A stretch of 64,000 bases of DNA, taken from NCBI RefSeq assembly GCF_002844395.1, contig NZ_CP025197.1, positions 1,550,001 to 1,614,000 on the forward strand. Reading direction: 5' to 3'. Positions 19,996 through 28,165 of the stretch are shown piece by piece. Numbering within the stretch: position 1 is the stretch's first letter; each line of letters starts with the position of its first letter. The translations under genes and the position numbers were made by a program. This DNA comes from Acetivibrio saccincola. GTDB taxonomy: Bacteria; Bacillota; Clostridia; Acetivibrionales; Acetivibrionaceae. Below the pieces are notes generated by a model. The model was not told the DNA's origin. It worked only from the letters and a program-made list of their open reading frames with translations, and searched no databases.

Positions 19996-20031
19996 CTACC
20001 TTGAATCCATTTTGTTTAAATTTTTTAATAT

Positions 20032-20313
20032 TTATCTTGGAAATTTTTTTATAATTTCTAAAACGTATCTTTGCAGTAATGTTGCATCCAAAGAATCTAT
20101 TATATTATCCCCGTTTAAATCTGCAGCTTCCTTATTAGGTAAGGATTTTTCCACTTCTAGTATGTATCTGCTTAGAAGGGAGTAATCCATTGAATTTATG
20201 ACTTTGTCATTTTTTATGTCACCGTACATTACGTCAGGTACAGGAGCATCTTCTGTAAATACAGTACATATTTCAGCAGAATCCTTTAAACCATTTGGAC
20301 CGTTTACAATATT
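20032..20313 (-). pseudogene. orphan dockerin, C-terminal remnant of a cellulosomal protein
   Basis: The minus strand encodes an uninterrupted 93 codons from 20313 to the TAA at 20032. Residues 1-28 (NIVNGPNGLKDSAEIC..) look like the end of a catalytic or binding module. A type I dockerin follows, with halves GDIKNDKVINSMD and ADLNGDNIIDSLD, each with LLSRYILE or LLQRYVLE. A TAA immediately upstream at 20314-20316 and the lack of a start, ribosome binding site or signal peptide show that the 5' part is gone. The dockerin halves look intact, so the loss is probably recent. An internal ATG at 20229 could give a bare dockerin, but it has no signal peptide. Confidence 0.7.
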
Positions 20314-20374
20314 TTATAAAAAAAGGTGGGCATTATGAAAAAAGTGATAAAAATTTAGATGTATTGCATTTAGA

Positions 20375-20440
20375 AGTACTGCATTTTAAAAAGACGTATC
20401 GTATTTGATACGTCTTTTTAAAAATGCAGTGCTTTTTTCT
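20375..20440. terminator. long hairpin between dockerin remnant and a small gene
   Basis: A stem of roughly 26 bp pairs AGTACTGCATTTTAAAAAGA.. with its complement ending ..TTAAAAATGCAGTGCT around a 6-nt loop; T runs flank it. It can terminate either direction and would serve the minus-strand small gene at 20446. Confidence 0.6.
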
Positions 20441-20445
20441 TTTAC

Positions 20446-20559
20446 TTAATATACTCCTCCAAATGGGAATATTATAAGTAATAGTATTATAAGTATTATT
20501 AAGAAGAAAACTCCTCCCCCGAATCCTACTCCTACACCTGCAAATCTTCCATTATCCAT
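20446..20559 (-). CDS. 37-residue Gly-rich hydrophobic protein (YjcZ-like)
   Basis: A short gene with a clear AAGGAGTG ribosome binding site before ATG at 20559. The product starts MDNGRFAGVGVGFGGGVFF, continues as a single run of Ile/Leu, and ends FPFGGVY. The Gly-rich head plus one transmembrane segment recalls the YjcZ/sporulation-associated small hydrophobic proteins of Firmicutes. The function is unknown. The long hairpin just downstream would terminate it. The IS110 element lies about 95 bases upstream and may have separated it from its original promoter. Confidence 0.65.
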   Translation of the reverse strand: MDNGRFAGVGVGFGGGVFFLIILIILLLIIFPFGGVY

Positions 20560-20780
20560 CTAAAACACTCCTTGTACAATTAATATTGTTATTTCATCAG
20601 TGACTTTTGCCACTGTTCGACCCTGTTAACATAATGTCATATTTGTTGCTTTTCTAAACATCAAGCACTTCTATGTGCCATCCCCTAGGGGATGGCGGCG
20701 GCTTTCAAATCCTGCCGCCTGCGGTTCCCCATCTATGACCGCTTGCTAGCTTTCGTCTGGCCTGAACCTTGTCAATCATG

Positions 20781-21000
20781 TATAATATTTTCCGGACTTG
20801 GAGAGTGTTTGTAATCACTCCTGGGACGGACCTTATTGGGCCGACTACCCGTAAGAAAGAGTATTTATCCATTCCGGTAAGTCTAAATGATTTGGCTGGT
20901 TGAGGCCAGCATTTCAGCTGGCTCCTCGTGTCACACGCAAGGTTGTTTACTTACATGAGAAGGAATGGAGTCTTTTAAGTCCATTAATCTTACAAAGGAG
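20781..21000 (+). ncRNA. candidate bridge RNA in the IS110 left end
   Basis: IS110-group elements encode a structured RNA of roughly 150-250 nt in the non-coding left end that guides recombination. Here about 350 non-coding bases precede the transposase. A TATAAT at 20781-20786 could start a transcript that contains hairpins GAGTG/CACTC (20803-20820) and CCAGC/GCTGG (20906-20921). An 18-bp perfect palindrome, CCATCCCCTAGGGGATGG, lies upstream at 20678. The assignment is inference from gene layout. The inverted repeats at the ends recall the IS1111 group, where the RNA sits at the right end, so the location is not certain. Confidence 0.35.
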
Positions 21001-21008
21001 GTATTTTT

Positions 21009-22298
21009 ATGAATTTTAGACCCATCGCCGGAATCGATGTCGGCAAGTTCTTCAGTGAGATGGCAATTCTTTCTCCATCCAATGAAGTAATTGCCCGCAT
21101 GAAGATCCGCCATGATTCCAGTACTGACGTTGAAAGAGCCGTTGAATTACTGAAAAAAACGGAAAAGGACTTTGATTCTAGGCCTTTCGTCGTCATGGAA
21201 TCCACTGGGCACTATCACAAAATCCTTTTCCATTCACTTTATAAAGCTGGATTTGAGGTTTCTGTCATAAACCCCATCCAAACTGATTCTATCAAAAATA
21301 TTGGAATAAGGAAAGTGAAAAATGATAAAGTGGATGCCCGGAAAATTGCTCTGCTATACAGATTTCAGGAGCTTAAAACTACCAATATCCCCGACGAGGA
21401 TATTGAATGTCTGCGAAGCCTTTGCCGCCAGTACTACAAGCTCTCTGACGAACTTACTGCTTACAAAAACAGGCTTATGGGTATTGTTGACCAACTCATG
21501 CTAAACTTCAAGGATGTATTCCCTAATATCTTTTCAAAGGCTGCTCTTGCAGTATTGGAGAAATATCCTGCACCTGCGCATATTCTTAAAGCGAACAGAA
21601 ACAAGTTGATTGCACTGATACAGAAGAATTCCCGCAGAAGCCTTAAATGGGCAACTGCAAAGTATGAGCTTTTGAATTCCAAGGCCAAAGAATTTGCACC
21701 TTTAAGCATTAGTAACTCTTCAAATGTTGCCATGCTTGGTGTGTATATCTCTATGATTAAAACCTTGGAAGAAAACCTTGAGAAAGTCCTCAAAGCCATT
21801 CGTTCATTGATTATTGAAGATATGGCAAAGGACATGCCCATGCTGGCACTGACTCTCGAGCTTCTACAAAGCATTCCAGGTATAGGACTTATCTCTGCTG
21901 TTACCATTCTGGCTGAAATTGGCGACTTTTCAGCCTTTTCAAAGCCAGGCAAGCTAGTTGCTTATTTCGGTATTGACCCCTCTGTAATGCAGTCCGGAGA
22001 GTTTACCGGCACACAAAACAAGATGTCAAAAAGGGGGTCAAGACTGCTTCGCAGAGTACTTTTCACAATTGCTCTTGCTAATATCCGCACCAAGCGGGAC
22101 AAAACAGCTTACAACCCTGTACTGATGGAATATTACAAAAACAAATGCCAGAGCAAGCCCAAGAAAGTAGCTTTGGGGGCTGTTATGCGTAAGCTTGTTA
22201 ATTATATTTTTGCTGTTCTTAGGGATAGAAAGCCTTACGAATTACGTTCTCCCCAAGAGCACGCGCAAATGCTTGCAGCGAAGCACACAGCAGCTTAG
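21009..22298 (+). CDS. IS110-family transposase (DEDD recombinase)
   Basis: A 429-residue recombinase. The N-terminal RuvC-like DEDD domain begins IAGIDVGKFFSEMAIL and includes FVVMESTGHYHK, VINPIQTDSIKN and VKNDKVDARKIALL (Asp-Glu-Asp-Asp residues). The C-terminal transposase_20 domain has LLQSIPGIGLISAVTILAEI and LVAYFGIDPSVMQSGEF with the conserved Ser region (KRGSRLLRRVLF). It should excise and integrate the element through a circular intermediate. AAAGGAGG precedes ATG 21009. The open frame looks complete, so the element may be active. Confidence 0.95.
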   Translation: MNFRPIAGIDVGKFFSEMAILSPSNEVIARMKIRHDSSTDVERAVELLKKTEKDFDSRPFVVMESTGHYHKILFHSLYKAGFEVSVINPIQTDSIKNIGIRKVKNDKVDARKIALLYRFQELKTTNIPDEDIECLRSLCRQYYKLSDELTAYKNRLMGIVDQLMLNFKDVFPNIFSKAALAVLEKYPAPAHILKANRNKLIALIQKNSRRSLKWATAKYELLNSKAKEFAPLSISNSSNVAMLGVYISMIKTLEENLEKVLKAIRSLIIEDMAKDMPMLALTLELLQSIPGIGLISAVTILAEIGDFSAFSKPGKLVAYFGIDPSVMQSGEFTGTQNKMSKRGSRLLRRVLFTIALANIRTKRDKTAYNPVLMEYYKNKCQSKPKKVALGAVMRKLVNYIFAVLRDRKPYELRSPQEHAQMLAAKHTAA

Positions 22299-22321
22299 TA
22301 GTACTTGTACTCGATGTTTAG

Positions 22322-22858
22322 TTTTCAAAGATCAATTTACTATTTCAGGCCAGCTATTTTATGTCTACTAATCTTAGGTGGTCTTGTCGTTGTGCCTTTT
22401 TTCGCTGTCAGGAGTTTTAGAAAATTCTTAAAATTTTTTCTTAAAAACTCTTGACTTTAATTAGCTGGTCTTTCTTATAGATATCACCCATAAGTATTTT
22501 CATGTAATACATATTATTTAGAACATAGAAAAATTGTTACTATTAAATAAAAAATTTGTTTTTTTCTTATGAATAAAATAATACTATGAAATGATAATTT
22601 ACTACTATATACATCCTTTGGATTATTTTGATATAATTTAATTGAGGGGAGTTGTATTTATTTTTAACATATTAACATTATATAGACAAAGAGTTGGATA
22701 AAGGGGATGGTTTATGTTGAGGTATATCTTTTATTATTAAAAATCTCTTTTAGTTCAACAACTTGGGTCTACATCTTTACGCCGGCATTCTTAGGTTTCA
22801 TATCTTTTCAATTCATTTAAATTAAAAAAATAAAACATAATGGGGAGGGAGTGTACAC
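22322..22858. other. non-coding stretch between the IS110 element and the fibro-slime gene
   Basis: The first 170 bases may still belong to the IS right end, since the composition changes gradually. No gene is evident. An extended -10 box (TG-A-TATAAT) near 22628-22636 is the best promoter candidate for the two-gene cassette downstream and would leave a leader of about 220 nt. A short open frame starting ATG near 22713 has only eight codons. Confidence 0.4.
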
Positions 22859-24508
22859 ATGAGGAGAAAAAAATTAGGTTTATTGACAGTAATAGCACTA
22901 CTGGTTTCTGTTATGTTACCAAGCTTTATAATAACAATTCCTGTAAATGCTAATGACGACTTGGATTTACCCGAGAAAGTTGTTTTTGAGGCGACTATAA
23001 GGGACTTTACTCCTGACACAAATCCGGATTTTGAAAACCGTAATTTTTATAATAATGCAATCAGAATAGGAAGTAAAGCTGTTAAAGGATTGGTGCAAGA
23101 TGAACTGGATGAAGACGGCAAACCTGTTTATAAAGGACCGGGGTATTATCGGGATGACTATGGTAGAATGAGAGATAACGTACAAATGATTACCAGTGCT
23201 GAGACATTTAGTCAATGGTATAGGGATGTTGAGGGTGTTAATCGTTCAGTTAAACGTGAAATTGAATTAAAACTAGACTATGATAAAAATAACAATCCGT
23301 ACTATTGTTTCAGTGATGACCAATTTTTCCCGATTGATGACGATGTACTTCGTGAAGGTGAAGAGACATTCGGAAATTATAAAGACAAACTAGTTGAAAA
23401 AGAAGAACGAACAGGAAGTGGTATTGTTGAGAAAGTAAGGGTAAGCAGAAATTTTCACTTCACAACAGAGATAGAGAGTAAATTTATGTACAAGGGCGGA
23501 GAAACTTTTACATTTATAGGTGACGATGATGTATGGGTATTTATTGACGGTAAGTTGGTAATTGATATAGGCGGGGTTCATGGAAAGGTAGAAGAAAAAA
23601 TATCTTTGGATGATTTGGATATCGGTTTAGAAAAAGGTAAGATATATACTTTTCACTTTTTCCATGCAGAAAGACATACAGTAGAATCAAATTTTACAAT
23701 ACAGACCACTATTGATTTTTATACTGAGCAGAATCATAAGATGAATCTTATGGCAAGAAATGAAGGTGGTAGTTATGACAGCGAAGCAAGTGGAATGGTA
23801 GGGGATATAGTAGAGCTTAAATATGTTTTCCCGGAACAGGAAATTGAACTGCCGGAAATAGAAAACATAAGTATAAACAGGATTGTATTTAATTTTGAGA
23901 CTAATCTTCCAAGGGGATTAGAAGTAATTGATTCAGGTGGGTTGATAAAATCGGATATATTAGATGAAAGAGGAAATATAATTGGTACTAAATTGCGGCA
24001 GCCCGACTCAGGTGAAGATTTTGATATAGATTATGAAGTTGACCCTGTTACAGGAAAGTACCGGATTAAGAAGCACGAAATAACAATAAAGGTAAGATTA
24101 TTGAGACCGGGAGCATACAAAATCAATCCTGAGGACATAATTGCTAATTATTCCTTATATTACTCAGATGGAGCGATTGTGGGTCTGCACAAAGGTCACT
24201 ATATTGCAGATAACAATGTAGGAATAAATGTAAGATTTAGAGCGAGAATAGAAGGACCTGATTCAATGTACGTTGGTCAAATTGTAACTTATACCGTAAT
24301 AACTGACTTAGAGGATACCACTGATACCAGCTTTATTTGGAGTGTAGATGAAAATTACCTTGAGATTGTTGAAGATAACGGGGAGACAATTAAAGTAAAA
24401 GCTGTGGGTAAAGGTGAAGGTAAAATAAGTGTAAATGTCGGACTTGACGGAATTAACCAGGAAGCAGAAAAGACAGTGAATATTATGTGGGTGATAGATA
24501 TTCAATAA
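22859..24508 (+). CDS. secreted fibro-slime (PA14-like) domain protein
   Basis: A 549-residue exported protein. A signal peptide (MRRKKLGLLTVIALLVSVML..) ends near residue 31. The next 270 residues match the fibro-slime domain: VFEATIRDFTPDTNPDFEN at the start, then FHFTTEIESKFMYKGGETF, FIGDDDVWVFIDGKLVIDIG, GVH, and FHFFHAERHTVESNFTI. PA14-like folds of this kind bind carbohydrate or cell-surface glycans. After a middle region of unknown type, the last 85 residues look like a bacterial Ig-like (Big_2) domain (VKAVGKGEGKISVNVGL). No dockerin or anchor is seen. GGGAGGGAG precedes ATG 22859. The cohesin gene follows 41 bases later, so the two form an operon. Confidence 0.85.
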   Translation: MRRKKLGLLTVIALLVSVMLPSFIITIPVNANDDLDLPEKVVFEATIRDFTPDTNPDFENRNFYNNAIRIGSKAVKGLVQDELDEDGKPVYKGPGYYRDDYGRMRDNVQMITSAETFSQWYRDVEGVNRSVKREIELKLDYDKNNNPYYCFSDDQFFPIDDDVLREGEETFGNYKDKLVEKEERTGSGIVEKVRVSRNFHFTTEIESKFMYKGGETFTFIGDDDVWVFIDGKLVIDIGGVHGKVEEKISLDDLDIGLEKGKIYTFHFFHAERHTVESNFTIQTTIDFYTEQNHKMNLMARNEGGSYDSEASGMVGDIVELKYVFPEQEIELPEIENISINRIVFNFETNLPRGLEVIDSGGLIKSDILDERGNIIGTKLRQPDSGEDFDIDYEVDPVTGKYRIKKHEITIKVRLLRPGAYKINPEDIIANYSLYYSDGAIVGLHKGHYIADNNVGINVRFRARIEGPDSMYVGQIVTYTVITDLEDTTDTSFIWSVDENYLEIVEDNGETIKVKAVGKGEGKISVNVGLDGINQEAEKTVNIMWVIDIQ

Positions 24509-24549
24509 AAATTATTGGTATATGAAATTATATTAAAGAGGTGTTTTGA

Positions 24550-25329
24550 ATGAAAAAGAGGATGAGTGCGTTAGCAATATTAGTTGTTGTTTTACTTGTT
24601 TCTTTTTTAGTAGTTAACGCAGCCACTGAGAGTATAATAGCTTTAATAGCCACTTTTGATATTTACGTTAACGGTGAAAAGTATCAAGGTGAAAATCCTC
24701 CTATTGTAATAGAAGGAAGAACCTATCTTCCTCTCAGGGCAATAGGGGAAGTGCTGGGAATAGATGTTGAGTGGAATCAACAGTTAAGAAGGGTTGAAGT
24801 TGAAAGACCAAGTGGAGGGGAAATAGTAGAGGAAGTAGAAGAAATTCCCGGCGCACCTGCAGGGTATGGTATTTTACCGGAAATCAGGGAAGTAAAATTC
24901 AGTAAACACGACCCTATAGACCTTAAAGTCGGAAGCTTGACAGCTACTAAAGGAAGCACTGTTGAGATTCCTGTTTACCTGGGATATGTGCCTAAGGGCG
25001 GCATATTTGAAACTGATTTTGAATTGCTGTATGATAGGGACATTTTAGAAATAGAAAGCGTAAAGCCCGGAAAATTACTGTCTGGAGACGGGGCAGGATT
25101 TAGTTACATTGGAGGAAACGGAATTGTAAATATAAAATTTGATTCAAATGCAGGAAGAAGGCCGTCAATTACTTCAGACGGGGAGTTGGCTGTAATAACG
25201 GCTAAAATTAAAAATAATGCGCCTACAGGCAAGACTGCAATCAGATTAAGCAGCGGGGGATATTTTGAAGATAATCATTCTGCTGCCCTTTGGGTATGGT
25301 ATATACCCGGAATTATAACAGTTGAATAA
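24550..25329 (+). CDS. secreted protein with copper-amine-oxidase-N domain and cohesin
   Basis: A 259-residue exported protein. A signal peptide covers about residues 1-24. Residues 33-92 match the copper amine oxidase N-terminal (stalk) domain, with IYVNGEKYQ, IVIEGRTYLPLRAIGEVLG and VEWNQQLRRVEV; this domain in clostridia is a surface-protein module and implies no oxidase activity. Residues about 120-259 read as a cohesin: LKVGSLTATKGSTVEIPVYL, FETDFELLYDRDILEIESVK, FDSNAGRRPSITSDGELAVI and APTGKTAIRLSSGGYF. A cohesin would let the protein hold a dockerin enzyme. No S-layer, sortase or dockerin module is present, so how it is retained is unclear. It is co-transcribed with the fibro-slime gene and followed by a terminator. 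Confidence 0.8.
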   Translation: MKKRMSALAILVVVLLVSFLVVNAATESIIALIATFDIYVNGEKYQGENPPIVIEGRTYLPLRAIGEVLGIDVEWNQQLRRVEVERPSGGEIVEEVEEIPGAPAGYGILPEIREVKFSKHDPIDLKVGSLTATKGSTVEIPVYLGYVPKGGIFETDFELLYDRDILEIESVKPGKLLSGDGAGFSYIGGNGIVNIKFDSNAGRRPSITSDGELAVITAKIKNNAPTGKTAIRLSSGGYFEDNHSAALWVWYIPGIITVE

Positions 25330-25362
25330 ATTTTAGTTAAATTGAATAATTAAGAAACTATA

Positions 25363-25394
25363 CAAAAAAGCTTGTTACATAACAAGCTTTTTTG
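25363..25394 (+). terminator. Rho-independent terminator after the cohesin gene
   Basis: ACAAAAAAGCTTGTTA pairs with TAACAAGCTTTTTTGT, a near-perfect stem with an AT loop and T run. Confidence 0.9.
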
Positions 25395-25465
25395 TGTTAG
25401 AATTATTATATACTGGGTATATTTAAATACTGATAAAATATTTTAATTAAAGGAGAGGGACAGTT

Positions 25466-25714
25466 ATGGAAAAGTACAATATCATGGCAGTTGTTATAAA
25501 CCACAGGTCAAACAATGCTCCTAAAGTTCAAGAAATTTTCACTAAATATGGTTGTAATATTAGAATGAGGGTTGGTCTTCATGAAACAGATAACACCTGT
25601 TCGGAAGAAGGTCTTATTTTACTCCAGCTGACAGGAAGCAAAGAAGAAATTGGTGAACTGGAAAAACAGCTTAATGATATGGAGGGGGTTAGGGCTAAGA
25701 CCCTTAGTATTTAA
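25466..25714 (+). CDS. TM1266-family iron-only hydrogenase system regulator (ACT-like)
   Basis: An 82-residue protein with a single ACT-like fold: YNIMAVVINHRSNNAPKVQE, then NIRMRVGLHET, LILLQLTGSKEEIGELEKQL and a final strand VRAKTLSI. It resembles the TM1266 family, annotated as a putative regulator of the iron-only hydrogenase system; no hydrogenase genes are in this window. AGGAGAGGG precedes ATG 25466. The terminator at 25791 follows it and has been duplicated together with the deacetylase gene. Confidence 0.75.
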   Translation: MEKYNIMAVVINHRSNNAPKVQEIFTKYGCNIRMRVGLHETDNTCSEEGLILLQLTGSKEEIGELEKQLNDMEGVRAKTLSI

Positions 25715-25767
25715 TCTATTAGCATTTATAGCATTTAATCTATAATTTCACTGAATTAAAGTACCAT

Positions 25768-26451
25768 AATAAAGTACTTATAATATATAAAAAATGGCTC
25801 TAAACCAATAGTAAAAAGGTTTATGAGCCTTTTTTAGTCCCTGGGCATATGTTTTATTGCATATATATTTCTCCCATACAATATTATTAATATAAGAAAT
25901 TAATATTGTTCGGGAGAATATTTTCTATGAAGCTCTATGTTATTAAAATTAACAGCATATTAAAAAGTATTTTTTTAGCCTCTATGGCAATTATATTGTT
26001 TGCAATGGTTTTTTATTTTAAAGAGGAAGTTGCAACGGTTTTCCAACAAAAGAGGGATTTACCCATATATTCAGTGGACAAAAAAATAGCAATTACTTTT
26101 GATTGTGCATGGGGAAGCGATGATATACCTGACATATTGGACACATTGGAAAAACACCAGGTAAAAGCTTCTTTTTTTATTGTGGGTACATGGGCAGAAA
26201 AATTTCCTGATGCTGTAAGATTAATTTCTGAAGCAGGTCATGATGTGGGAAATCACTCCTATTCACATATAAAAATGGGGAGTGTTGACCGGAACCGGAT
26301 AAAAGATGAGATTATTAAATGTGACAGTGTTTTGGAAAAAATCACAGGTAAAGAAGTTAACCTCTTTAGACCGCCTTATGGGGAGTATAATAATGATGTG
26401 ATAAGGGTGGCTAGGGAACTAAATCACTATACAATTCAATGGGATGTGGAT
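25768..26451 (+). repeat. duplicated segment, copy 1
   Basis: 684 bases identical by eye to 27230-27922 apart from a 9-base deletion (CTGCCCTGA missing near 26078). It contains a terminator, the upstream region and the first two-thirds of a polysaccharide deacetylase gene. Confidence 0.92.
25791..25835 (+). terminator. terminator upstream of deacetylase copy 1
   Basis: GGCTCTAAACC pairs with GGTTTATGAGCC (one mismatch) and is followed by TTTTTT. It most probably ends the TM1266-family gene. Confidence 0.75.
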
Positions 26452-26538
26452 TCATTAAATATAAAAGTAAAACATACTCAATCCGCACAAGCGGATATTT
26501 TTTTATATAGACCTGTTTTAAATACAATAACAATTTGA
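25927..26538 (+). pseudogene. truncated polysaccharide deacetylase (duplicate copy)
   Basis: This copy encodes 203 residues. The first 175 are identical to the complete gene at 27389 except for three residues (Cys-Pro-Asp) lost by the 9-base deletion before the first motif. It keeps motif 1 (TFDCAWG), motif 2 (GNHSYSH) and motif 3 (RPPYGEYN). At VDSL the sequence diverges into an unrelated 28-residue tail and a stop, so motif 4 (DWHPD) and motif 5 (LLFHND), both needed for the active site, are missing. The start is ATG 25927 behind CGGGAG; a TTG at 25906 is also in frame. The product, if made, should be inactive. Confidence 0.85.
26481..26504 (+). terminator. terminator inside the 3' end of the truncated deacetylase
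   Basis: ATCCGC-ACAA-GCGGAT followed by a T-rich run. It lies within the novel tail of the truncated copy, so transcription of that copy probably ends here, before its stop codon. Confidence 0.7.
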
Positions 26539-26589: not shown

Positions 26590-26781
26590 ATGGAGATAAT
26601 AAGCAAAGGGTTAAAAAAATGTTATATAATGCACAGCACAACAACAGGTAAATATATGATTTGCAAGGTTTTAAATGAATATGACAACGAAAAAGAAGCC
26701 GATGATGATATGGTTAAGTTGTTAACTCATGAAATTAGCGAAAAAGATTTGTTGAAGGAATTTAGTAAAAAACCATACTAA
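26590..26781 (+). CDS. 63-residue hypothetical protein
   Basis: A small acidic/basic cytoplasmic protein that I do not recognise. It starts MEIISKGLKKCYIMHSTTTG and ends in a charged helix (HEISEKDLLKEFSKKPY). A full promoter (26535-26563) and AAAGGAGG immediately upstream make it a credible gene. It lies between the two copies of the deacetylase duplication and is followed at once by the first copy of a local repeat family. Confidence 0.55.
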   Translation: MEIISKGLKKCYIMHSTTTGKYMICKVLNEYDNEKEADDDMVKLLTHEISEKDLLKEFSKKPY

Positions 26782-26784
26782 AGT

Positions 26785-27228
26785 TTTAGAAAATCCTGCA
26801 AACCCGCATGAATAGCGAATTTTGAGATTTGTTGCCCCATTTTGATATAATGAAAAAGAAAACATAGAAATGTTAAGGGTTTAGAAAATCCTGCAAACCT
26901 GCATGAATAGCGGATTTTGGGCAATTTTTTTATAAAAAATAACATTTTTCTATTCTATGGAATAGAATATTAAACAAAAATCTAATACTTTAGAAAATCC
27001 CGCAAACTTAGATGAAACACAGTAAAATCAATACTTTTAAGGATTTTGTTTATTTTTATTTATCAGAATAGGAAGAACAAAATATTAATATAATTTTCAT
27101 ATTAAACGTACATCAAACCGTAGGAAATATTGCAGTAGTTGTTGGAAGAAACGACATCAAGAATTAAAAAATAAATGGAAACGTGAAAAATGGAATAAAG
27201 GAAGAAGTTTAGAAAATCCTGCAAACCT
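26785..27228 (+). repeat. local repeat family, four copies (TTTAGAAAATCCTGCAAAC)
   Basis: Copies start at 26785, 26880, 26989 and 27208. The first two are 39 nt and can fold with arms AAAATCC and GGATTTT (one mismatch in the first); the third shares about 19 nt; the fourth is cut after about 21 nt by the start of duplicated segment 2. Between copies one and two is another promoter-like pair, TTGAGA (26822) and TATAAT (26846), with no gene behind it. Confidence 0.75.
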
Positions 27229-27265
27229 GAATAAAGTACTTATAATATATAAAAAATGGCTCTAA
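27089..27265 (+). pseudogene. basic CxxC-containing coding remnant
   Basis: An open frame of 58 codons without a start codon encodes a very basic segment, RRKYCSSCWKKRHQEL, followed by a Lys/Trp-rich helix. It runs through the fourth repeat copy into the duplicated deacetylase leader, where it stops. The CxxC and basic helix recall a small zinc-ribbon or nucleic-acid-binding protein. It may be a fragment fused by the duplication, or a chance frame. Confidence 0.25.
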
Positions 27266-27922
27266 ACCAATAGTAAAAAGGTTTATGAGCCTTTTTTAGT
27301 CCCTGGGCATATGTTTTATTGCATATATATTTCTCCCATACAATATTATTAATATAAGAAATTAATATTGTTCGGGAGAATATTTTCTATGAAGCTCTAT
27401 GTTATTAAAATTAACAGCATATTAAAAAGTATTTTTTTAGCCTCTATGGCAATTATATTGTTTGCAATGGTTTTTTATTTTAAAGAGGAAGTTGCAACGG
27501 TTTTCCAACAAAAGAGGGATTTACCCATATATTCAGTGGACTGCCCTGACAAAAAAATAGCAATTACTTTTGATTGTGCATGGGGAAGCGATGATATACC
27601 TGACATATTGGACACATTGGAAAAACACCAGGTAAAAGCTTCTTTTTTTATTGTGGGTACATGGGCAGAAAAATTTCCTGATGCTGTAAGATTAATTTCT
27701 GAAGCAGGTCATGATGTGGGAAATCACTCCTATTCACATATAAAAATGGGGAGTGTTGACCGGAACCGGATAAAAGATGAGATTATTAAATGTGACAGTG
27801 TTTTGGAAAAAATCACAGGTAAAGAAGTTAACCTCTTTAGACCGCCTTATGGGGAGTATAATAATGATGTGATAAGGGTGGCTAGGGAACTAAATCACTA
27901 TACAATTCAATGGGATGTGGAT
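27230..27922 (+). repeat. duplicated segment, copy 2
   Basis: 693 bases that repeat 25768-26451 in direct orientation, 1462 bases downstream, with the 9 bases CTGCCCTGA retained. Its left edge joins directly to a truncated copy of the local repeat family. Its right edge lies inside the intact deacetylase gene at the GAT of VDSL. Confidence 0.92.
27253..27297 (+). terminator. duplicated terminator upstream of the intact deacetylase
   Basis: Same stem-loop as at 25791-25835, carried over by the duplication. Confidence 0.7.
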
Positions 27923-28165
27923 AGTTTAGATTGGCATCCGGATATCACCATAGAAGAAATACATAATAGAATAAAAAAAGGCGTAAAGAACGGTTCAATT
28001 TTATTGTTTCACAATGATACAAAGCACACTGCAAATATAATTTCAGATATAATTGTTAATTTAAAAAACAGTGGCTATAGCTTTGTACCGGTTTCAGAGT
28101 TGATAATTAAAGAAGACTATTATATTGACAATACAGGAAGGCAGATAAAAAAACAAAAATCCTGA
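27389..28165 (+). CDS. polysaccharide deacetylase (PdaB-like)
   Basis: A 258-residue membrane-anchored or secreted NodB-fold deacetylase, expected to remove acetyl groups from peptidoglycan or other N-acetylglucosamine polymers. An N-terminal hydrophobic helix (SIFLASMAIILFAMVFYF) precedes the catalytic domain. Motifs are in order: TFDCAWGSDD (motif 1, with Cys-Ala in place of Asp-Gly), GNHSYSH (metal His pair), RPPYGEYN, DSLDWHPD and LLFHND. The start is ATG 27389 behind CGGGAG; TTG 27368 is a possible alternative. The size and motif 1 variant match sporulation-type PdaB proteins. An almost identical truncated copy lies 1.46 kb upstream. Confidence 0.9.
   Translation: MKLYVIKINSILKSIFLASMAIILFAMVFYFKEEVATVFQQKRDLPIYSVDCPDKKIAITFDCAWGSDDIPDILDTLEKHQVKASFFIVGTWAEKFPDAVRLISEAGHDVGNHSYSHIKMGSVDRNRIKDEIIKCDSVLEKITGKEVNLFRPPYGEYNNDVIRVARELNHYTIQWDVDSLDWHPDITIEEIHNRIKKGVKNGSILLFHNDTKHTANIISDIIVNLKNSGYSFVPVSELIIKEDYYIDNTGRQIKKQKS

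Follow-up and report, generated by a model that had tools for sequence, protein, structure and literature searches.

A conserved fibro-slime/cohesin gene pair in Acetivibrio saccincola as a possible wall-anchored adhesin module

The present analysis deals with two neighbouring genes of Acetivibrio saccincola located in a 64,000-nucleotide stretch of contig NZ_CP025197.1 (positions 1,550,001 to 1,614,000 of the forward strand, assembly GCF_002844395.1), which is referred to in its full length as the window. The first gene encodes a fibro-slime protein and the second a protein that combines a copper-amine-oxidase-N (CuAO-N) half-domain with a single cohesin. Both genes are read from the same strand with an intergenic gap of 41 bases, and the N-termini of both products are signal-like as judged by eye, in agreement with the two open reading frames (ORFs) that an initial annotation of the window had described as a cassette of exported proteins (Table 1). 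Sequence comparisons indicate that the two genes are a conserved unit, whose adjacency appears to have been kept across two families. Throughout this work G000 designates the genome carrying the window, G001, G002 and G004 (Herbivorax sp. ANBcel31) are genomes of the same genus, and G049 belongs to another family of the same order; locus genes for which no family search was made received their names by eye.

The fibro-slime identity proposed for the first protein was corroborated by the NCBIfam family TIGR02148, which matched residues 197-286 with 116.5 bits and an E-value of 5.4e-34, passing the curated cut-off of 45, and the Pfam PA14 match at residues 200-283 (PF07691, 31.5 bits, cut-off 24) overlaps this region. 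No dockerin, SLH or sortase model was detected in this protein in a Pfam scan up to E 1. A cryptic dockerin was ruled out by the combination of Pfam and loop-motif scans: the dockerin-loop motif was present in none of the four fibro-slime proteins scanned and was detected in the dockerin control, and Pfam found no dockerin in the fibro-slime proteins of G000, G001, G002 and G049 or in the two G004 pieces. In the second protein, the cohesin (PF00963, 77.3 bits, cut-off 24.1) and CuAO-N (PF07833, 45.9 bits, cut-off 24.2) modules anticipated by the initial annotation both scored above their cut-offs, the latter over the second half of the profile only (positions 53-107 of 108). An additional match of this protein to P22_AR_N reached 12.1 bits, below its cut-off, and no NCBIfam family was matched.

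Table 1. Coordinates of the gene pair and of the surrounding features in the window
Feature	Position	Strand	Basis
Fibro-slime protein gene, 549 amino acids	22859-24508	+	ORF; export judged by eye
Fibro-slime/PA14-like domain, residues 197-286	23447-23716	+	TIGR02148, PF07691
Immunoglobulin (Ig)-like stalk region of fibro-slime protein, residues 292-546	23732-24496	+	AlphaFold2 strands
CuAO-N/cohesin protein gene, 259 amino acids	24550-25329	+	ORF; export judged by eye
CuAO-N half-domain (CSBM type), residues 29-83	24634-24798	+	PF07833
Type I-grade cohesin domain, residues 124-244	24919-25281	+	PF00963
Conserved upstream block with sigma-A-like promoter	22598-22650	+	Alignment of 3 genomes, largely identical
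Terminator-like hairpin after cohesin gene	25362-25395		15-pair stem, called on - strand
IS110-family transposase gene	21009-22298	+	PF01548, PF02371
GH5-dockerin remnant, last 93 codons (dockerin tail)	20035-20310	-	Alignment to G001 gene

Structure prediction bore out the cohesin fold of the second protein. From residue 121 on, the AlphaFold2 model was confident (10-residue means of the predicted local distance difference test, pLDDT, of 78-96), and the modelled domain aligned with the CipA cohesin 1aoh_B (Z 21.1, 142 residues, root-mean-square deviation (rmsd) 2.1) and with the OlpC cohesin 4dh2_C (Z 20.6, 145 residues, rmsd 1.9). The CuAO-N part, with pLDDT mostly near or below 50, yielded a model too weak to use, and the model of the N-terminal half of the fibro-slime protein was likewise too poor for fold comparison. 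In the fibro-slime stalk, 10-residue pLDDT means ranged from about 61 to 94; the best fold match was middling and informative at the fold level only (8beg_A, Z 11.1, 208 residues, rmsd 10.4), and the final stalk domain at residues 460-546 gave a similarly middling Z of 10.5 with 5dmy_A (82 residues, rmsd 1.7).

Among 58 genomes of the order, relatives of the fibro-slime protein were found in six (E<=1e-20) and relatives of the CuAO-N/cohesin protein in nine (E<=1e-25, with up to 45 candidates scored per genome). The adjacency noted in the window is kept in four of these genomes, namely G000, G002 (on contig JAAYTS010000200.1), G004 and G049, and wherever the pair-type cohesin gene occurs it adjoins a fibro-slime gene (4/4). 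The remaining five of the nine (G005, G006, G007, G012 and G013, the last of which we take to be C. thermocellum ATCC 27405) carry proteins of the ScaG/OlpC types in other gene surroundings. In G049 the pair is flanked by genes unlike those of the other pair loci, and its fibro-slime protein bears an extra N-terminal stretch with no clear Pfam or PDB relative; genes that resemble pilin-secretion genes by eye precede this pair on the same strand (L052:4446-11963). In a sample of 391 genomes of the class, taken from a larger group and with at most three candidates scored in those listed, the fibro-slime profile matched in six genomes at E<=1e-15. Two of these, G139 and G309, were new relative to the survey of the order; no cohesin gene was seen beside their fibro-slime genes in the loci covered, which are short and for G139 comprise one side only. 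Distant fibro-slime proteins with their own SLH anchors occur twice in G007 and once in G139, and no cohesin gene lies within 16 kb around those of G007 or on the single viewed side of that of G139. We found no literature naming a fibro-slime/cohesin pair.

Between G000 and G002 the fibro-slime gene has a nonsynonymous divergence (dN) of 0.186 and a synonymous divergence (dS) of 0.811 (dN/dS about 0.23), and the cohesin gene has a dN of 0.114 and a dS of 0.565 (dN/dS about 0.20), values that show purifying selection on both window genes.

The initial annotation had suggested that the pair would be an unusual cellulosome-associated module; for the build of the cohesin protein this view is not supported, since the combination of CuAO-N with a single type I cohesin has been published as that of OlpC and ScaG (PMC4582956, PMC3413522 and PMC6780208). 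According to part of PMC4582956, which cites Pinheiro et al., the CuAO-like domain of OlpC binds secondary cell-wall polymers, and ScaG is reported in sections of PMC6780208 and PMC4582956 as a binder of type I dockerins. The window protein shares with OlpC (Cthe_0452, Clostridium thermocellum) and ScaG the signal-like N-terminus, the CuAO-N domain (CSBM) and one C-terminal type I cohesin, and is 30-37% identical to ten aligned members. It differs from them in the genomic place of its gene, in an operon with the fibro-slime gene, and in that window-type cohesins are variable at contact positions.

In a tree of 54 cohesins, in which the ScaG cohesin of G000 was entered once and 12 of the 29 cohesins of G013 were included, the four pair cohesins formed one clade on the type I side (support 100/94). 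Seven members made up the OlpC clade (100/95), namely OlpC itself plus ScaG of G000-G003, G008 and G012, and the pair cohesin fell outside it; the branch order within type I, including the placement of the pair clade relative to ScaG of G005, G006 and G007, is poorly supported, and a sister relation is possible. The type II-type group was supported at 95/97, with a weak root branch (72/63) and a long branch for G049. A separate ScaG is encoded elsewhere in G000 (C1:2290272-2290931); it shares 34% identity with the window protein, belongs to the OlpC clade and adjoins an nrdR-like gene by eye, as ScaG does in G001, G002 and G003. Residues 98-258 of the G013 protein matched the OlpC cohesin structure 4dh2 with 340.6 bits. 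Taken together, the window protein appears OlpC/ScaG-like in build by both modules, though outside the OlpC clade. As a separate observation, in a G000 scaffoldin with several cohesins one type II-like cohesin has its reading frame split by an in-frame TAA (C1:562775-563155), owing to either a sequencing error or a real interruption. The CuAO-N module itself combines with differing partners, since the G013 protein at L038:1483-2211, whose CuAO-N segment is 51% identical to that of the window, carries DUF4352 in place of the cohesin; two clusters of many CuAO-N frames, mostly of about 180-350 amino acids, also occur in G000 (C1:1265-1304 kb and 1510-1541 kb).

The pair is present both in genomes with dockerins and in one where none was detected. 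PF00404 matches amount to 66 in G000, 61 in G002 and at least 91 in G004 (150 of 166 candidates scored), in contrast to none in G049, a genome 83% complete whose only PF00963 match is the cohesin of the pair. A cellulosome-sized set of dockerins could hardly have been lost from view through this incompleteness. Contamination as the origin of the G049 pair is unlikely on the grounds of tetranucleotide composition, since its contig, C27, correlated with five other G049 contigs at r 0.85-0.94 and with stretches of G000, G004 and G001 at r 0.32-0.71, and of the core-gene-like genes (by eye) that this contig carries.

The dockerin-binding face was evaluated at eleven positions that we take to be the dockerin contacts of 1ohz. 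The three congeneric pair cohesins showed an identity of 0.42 at these positions versus 0.77 elsewhere (random sets as low, 0.3%), and the four pair cohesins together 30% versus 58%. By comparison, the values were 0.94 versus 0.82 for ScaG of G000, G002 and G003, and 0.95 versus 0.66 for four CipA cohesins. Pairwise controls were drawn from 145 cohesins and restricted to comparisons across loci in which the residues other than the contacts were 55-90% identical, a selection that contains no G049 comparison. Across the 539 control comparisons the contacts were more conserved by a mean of +0.18, with 19 below zero and 520 not, whereas the pair comparisons gave -0.42, -0.35 and -0.25, values as low as which were found in 1, 1 and 2 controls, respectively, these being counts and not probabilities. 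Position 37 is E, K or R in the three congeneric pair cohesins and in 0 of 131 control cohesins, that is, 131 of 138 matches with coverage of at least 75% from 24 chosen loci. The notion that a polar position 83 denotes absence of dockerin binding was discarded, because a polar residue occupies this position in 11 of the 131 type I-like controls. One of these polar-83 controls is the 4uyp cohesin itself (289.5 bits), a ScaC cohesin whose structure was determined in complex with a dockerin, and another, from G006, is its relative (156.2 bits).

The conserved block upstream of the pair and the hairpin downstream of it fit an operon. The promoter-like site comprises TATACA at 22608, an 18-nucleotide spacer and TATAAT ending at 22637 with a preceding TG (10/12), in a block situated about 220 bases upstream of the fibro-slime start codon; sigma-A-like sites in the region are near chance level (18 versus a shuffled mean of 14.2), and no second copy of 22598-22641 was found within the window at up to three mismatches. 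An RNA leader was considered and rejected, given that a scan of 20000-25480 yielded no Rfam match at gathering score and that the fold of 22640-22870 was no more stable than those of shuffled sequences (z 0.81). At the other end, a T-run judged by eye also lies 3' of the hairpin on the + strand.

The surroundings of the pair were compared with those in two congeners. The G001 locus runs from an aldo/keto reductase gene through two GH5-dockerin genes and a methyltransferase gene to the fibro-slime gene, followed by ferritin and by a gene similar to the CPF_0552-family gene found at 25466 of the window. In G004 a GH5-dockerin gene and a methyltransferase gene precede the fibro-slime gene (with an in-frame TAA) and the CuAO-N/cohesin gene, followed by ferritin, chemoreceptor-like and deacetylase genes. 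The window displays a reductase 71% identical to that of G001, the GH5-dockerin tail, IS110 and then the pair. The tail is 60% identical to residues 501-593 of the syntenic G001 gene (L056:14542-16320); hence the dockerin at 20032, listed in the initial annotation among those to be probed for cohesin binding, is a remnant of a lost gene. No IS110 was found at the syntenic place among the ORFs of the G001 and G004 loci. Because the relatives keep the locus order and the window retains only the GH5-dockerin tail, we interpret the window locus as a conserved one scarred by IS110 and a deletion. The earlier description of an accessory patch next to an IS110 element was therefore right as to the element, which is present, but not as to the patch, the locus being conserved in relatives and the IS110 and the deletion amounting to local damage.

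Further downstream, the stretches 25763-26376 and 27225-27847 form a direct duplication, 99-100% identical and about 1.46 kb apart. The polysaccharide-deacetylase copies associated with this region comprise a shortened one (25906-26538) and a longer one (27368-28165), which aligns with the G004 gene over almost its whole length. A 46-nucleotide repeat is found three times between the duplicated stretches (26779-26824, 26874-26919 and 27202-27247), the second and third copies being 91% and 67% identical to the first and the third overlapping the second stretch.

Several known systems resemble parts of this arrangement. With the fibro-slime proteins of Fibrobacter succinogenes, which are described in part of PMC8865330 as members of a complex thought to help cellulose adhesion, the window protein can be likened by domain and description, the fibro-slime domain being common to both; in contrast, the window protein occurs in a cellulosome producer and is paired with a cohesin protein. 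In A. cellulolyticus, PA14 lies within novel scaffoldin types according to portions of PMC3413522, so that PA14 and cohesin also meet in one system, though here they are found on two polypeptides. The ScaC-type cohesin 4uyp, solved in complex with a ScaB dockerin according to its structure title, has in common with the pair cohesins the type I character, the polar position 83 and variable contacts. Finally, the cohesin folds of Archaeoglobus fulgidus (2xdh) and Clostridium perfringens (2jh2, 2vo8, 2w1n) exist without a cellulosome, as may hold in G049, but are less similar to the window cohesin (Z 15.0-18.4) than type I cohesins are (18.7-21.1, ranks 1-20).

On these grounds we tentatively propose, with a probability of roughly 0.4, that the pair constitutes a wall-anchored adhesin module in which the cohesin holds the fibro-slime protein encoded in the same operon rather than a standard dockerin enzyme. 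Both proteins would be exported. The CuAO-N half-domain might attach the second protein to the wall, by analogy with OlpC, leaving the cohesin pointing outward. The fibro-slime protein could act as an adhesin, with a PA14/fibro-slime domain displayed on an Ig-like stalk and no recognised wall anchor, and this domain may bind a glycan, as envisaged in the Fibrobacter adhesion complex. The cohesin, related to type I and most likely no longer serving ordinary enzyme dockerins, would tether the fibro-slime protein, providing the cell with a carbohydrate-binding surface protein. This tethering is marginally favoured because the fibro-slime protein lacks an anchor and a dockerin and because the cohesin gene always adjoins it in this clade. 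Also in its favour count the presence of the pair in G049, where no dockerin was detected, the poorly conserved contacts, the purifying selection on both genes, and the absence of a neighbouring cohesin gene, within the stretches viewed, where distant fibro-slime proteins bring their own SLH anchor. A broader evolutionary version appears rather unlikely, namely that a type I-derived cohesin left the dockerin system and became the wall receptor of a dockerin-less fibro-slime adhesin, the module being old and occurring also outside cellulosome producers.

Ranked just below the tethering of the fibro-slime protein, and nearly as plausible, is the capture of dockerin enzymes, as the initial annotation had suggested. 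In such a case the CuAO-N/cohesin protein would be a second OlpC/ScaG-like anchoring scaffoldin, fixed to the wall by CuAO-N and perhaps endowed with a special, ScaC-like specificity, whereas the fibro-slime protein would be a co-expressed substrate adhesin. The OlpC-like domain order, the dockerin binding described for ScaG in parts of PMC6780208 and PMC4582956, the sound type I fold and the 61 to at least 91 dockerins of three of the four pair genomes are all consistent with it. The lack of a detected dockerin in G049, the residues at position 37 and contacts that are poorly conserved, unlike those of ScaG from three congeners, argue in the opposite direction. The contact argument is weakened, however, because the polar-83 controls are ScaC-type and 19 of the 539 controls lie below zero, and a number of further observations weigh against our preferred reading. 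The OlpC/ScaG orthologues of G013, G012 and G008 show 0.64 at the contacts versus 0.77 elsewhere, adding G001 to the ScaG proteins of G000, G002 and G003 brings these to 0.65 versus 0.62, and among the controls a ScaC-type comparison (G007-G006, -0.42) and an OlpC-type one (G008-G012, -0.33) fall lowest. Since OlpC and ScaC cohesins vary at the contacts yet have solved dockerin complexes (4dh2 and 4uyp, by their structure titles), the weak conservation of the pair cohesins can also mean a changed dockerin specificity. Moreover, the contact positions are presumed ones and the control comparisons are mutually related, both G001 and G004 have GH5-dockerin genes close to this locus, which also suits dockerin capture, and with G049 at its present completeness a single dockerin could be missing.

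The partnership itself is also put in question by two congeners. G001 keeps the syntenic fibro-slime gene with no adjoining cohesin gene, and therefore the partner is not obligatory; in G004 the fibro-slime gene (L054:5273-6880) has an in-frame TAA and its cohesin gene is open, and the piece before the TAA (dN 0.35, dS 0.71) is under weaker constraint than the one after it. Both cases count against a strict partnership and would suit an adhesin and a cohesin-fold protein with another ligand, such as a wall or pilus component, that act separately and share the operon for expression only, as would the pilin-like genes (by eye) ahead of the G049 pair. Nevertheless, adjacency retained in two families despite differing flanks makes separate action improbable. 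The same interrupted G004 orthologue, together with the dockerin tail of the lost GH5 gene and the IS110 element upstream, might alternatively indicate a decaying relic in a damaged region; this is highly improbable, as both genes are open in G000 and are under purifying selection relative to G002, and the conserved promoter block has been retained.

The usual view of cohesins is that they receive dockerins, and a cohesin gene is for this reason easily assigned to a cellulosome. With one copy in a genome where no dockerin was detected, the conserved pair of cohesin and adhesin raises the question of whether cohesins can bind other ligands. If the cohesin does hold the fibro-slime protein, this would represent a non-dockerin ligand for a cohesin of the cellulosomal type, and the pair might provide cellulosome bacteria with a grip on plant fibres apart from the binding modules borne by scaffoldins.

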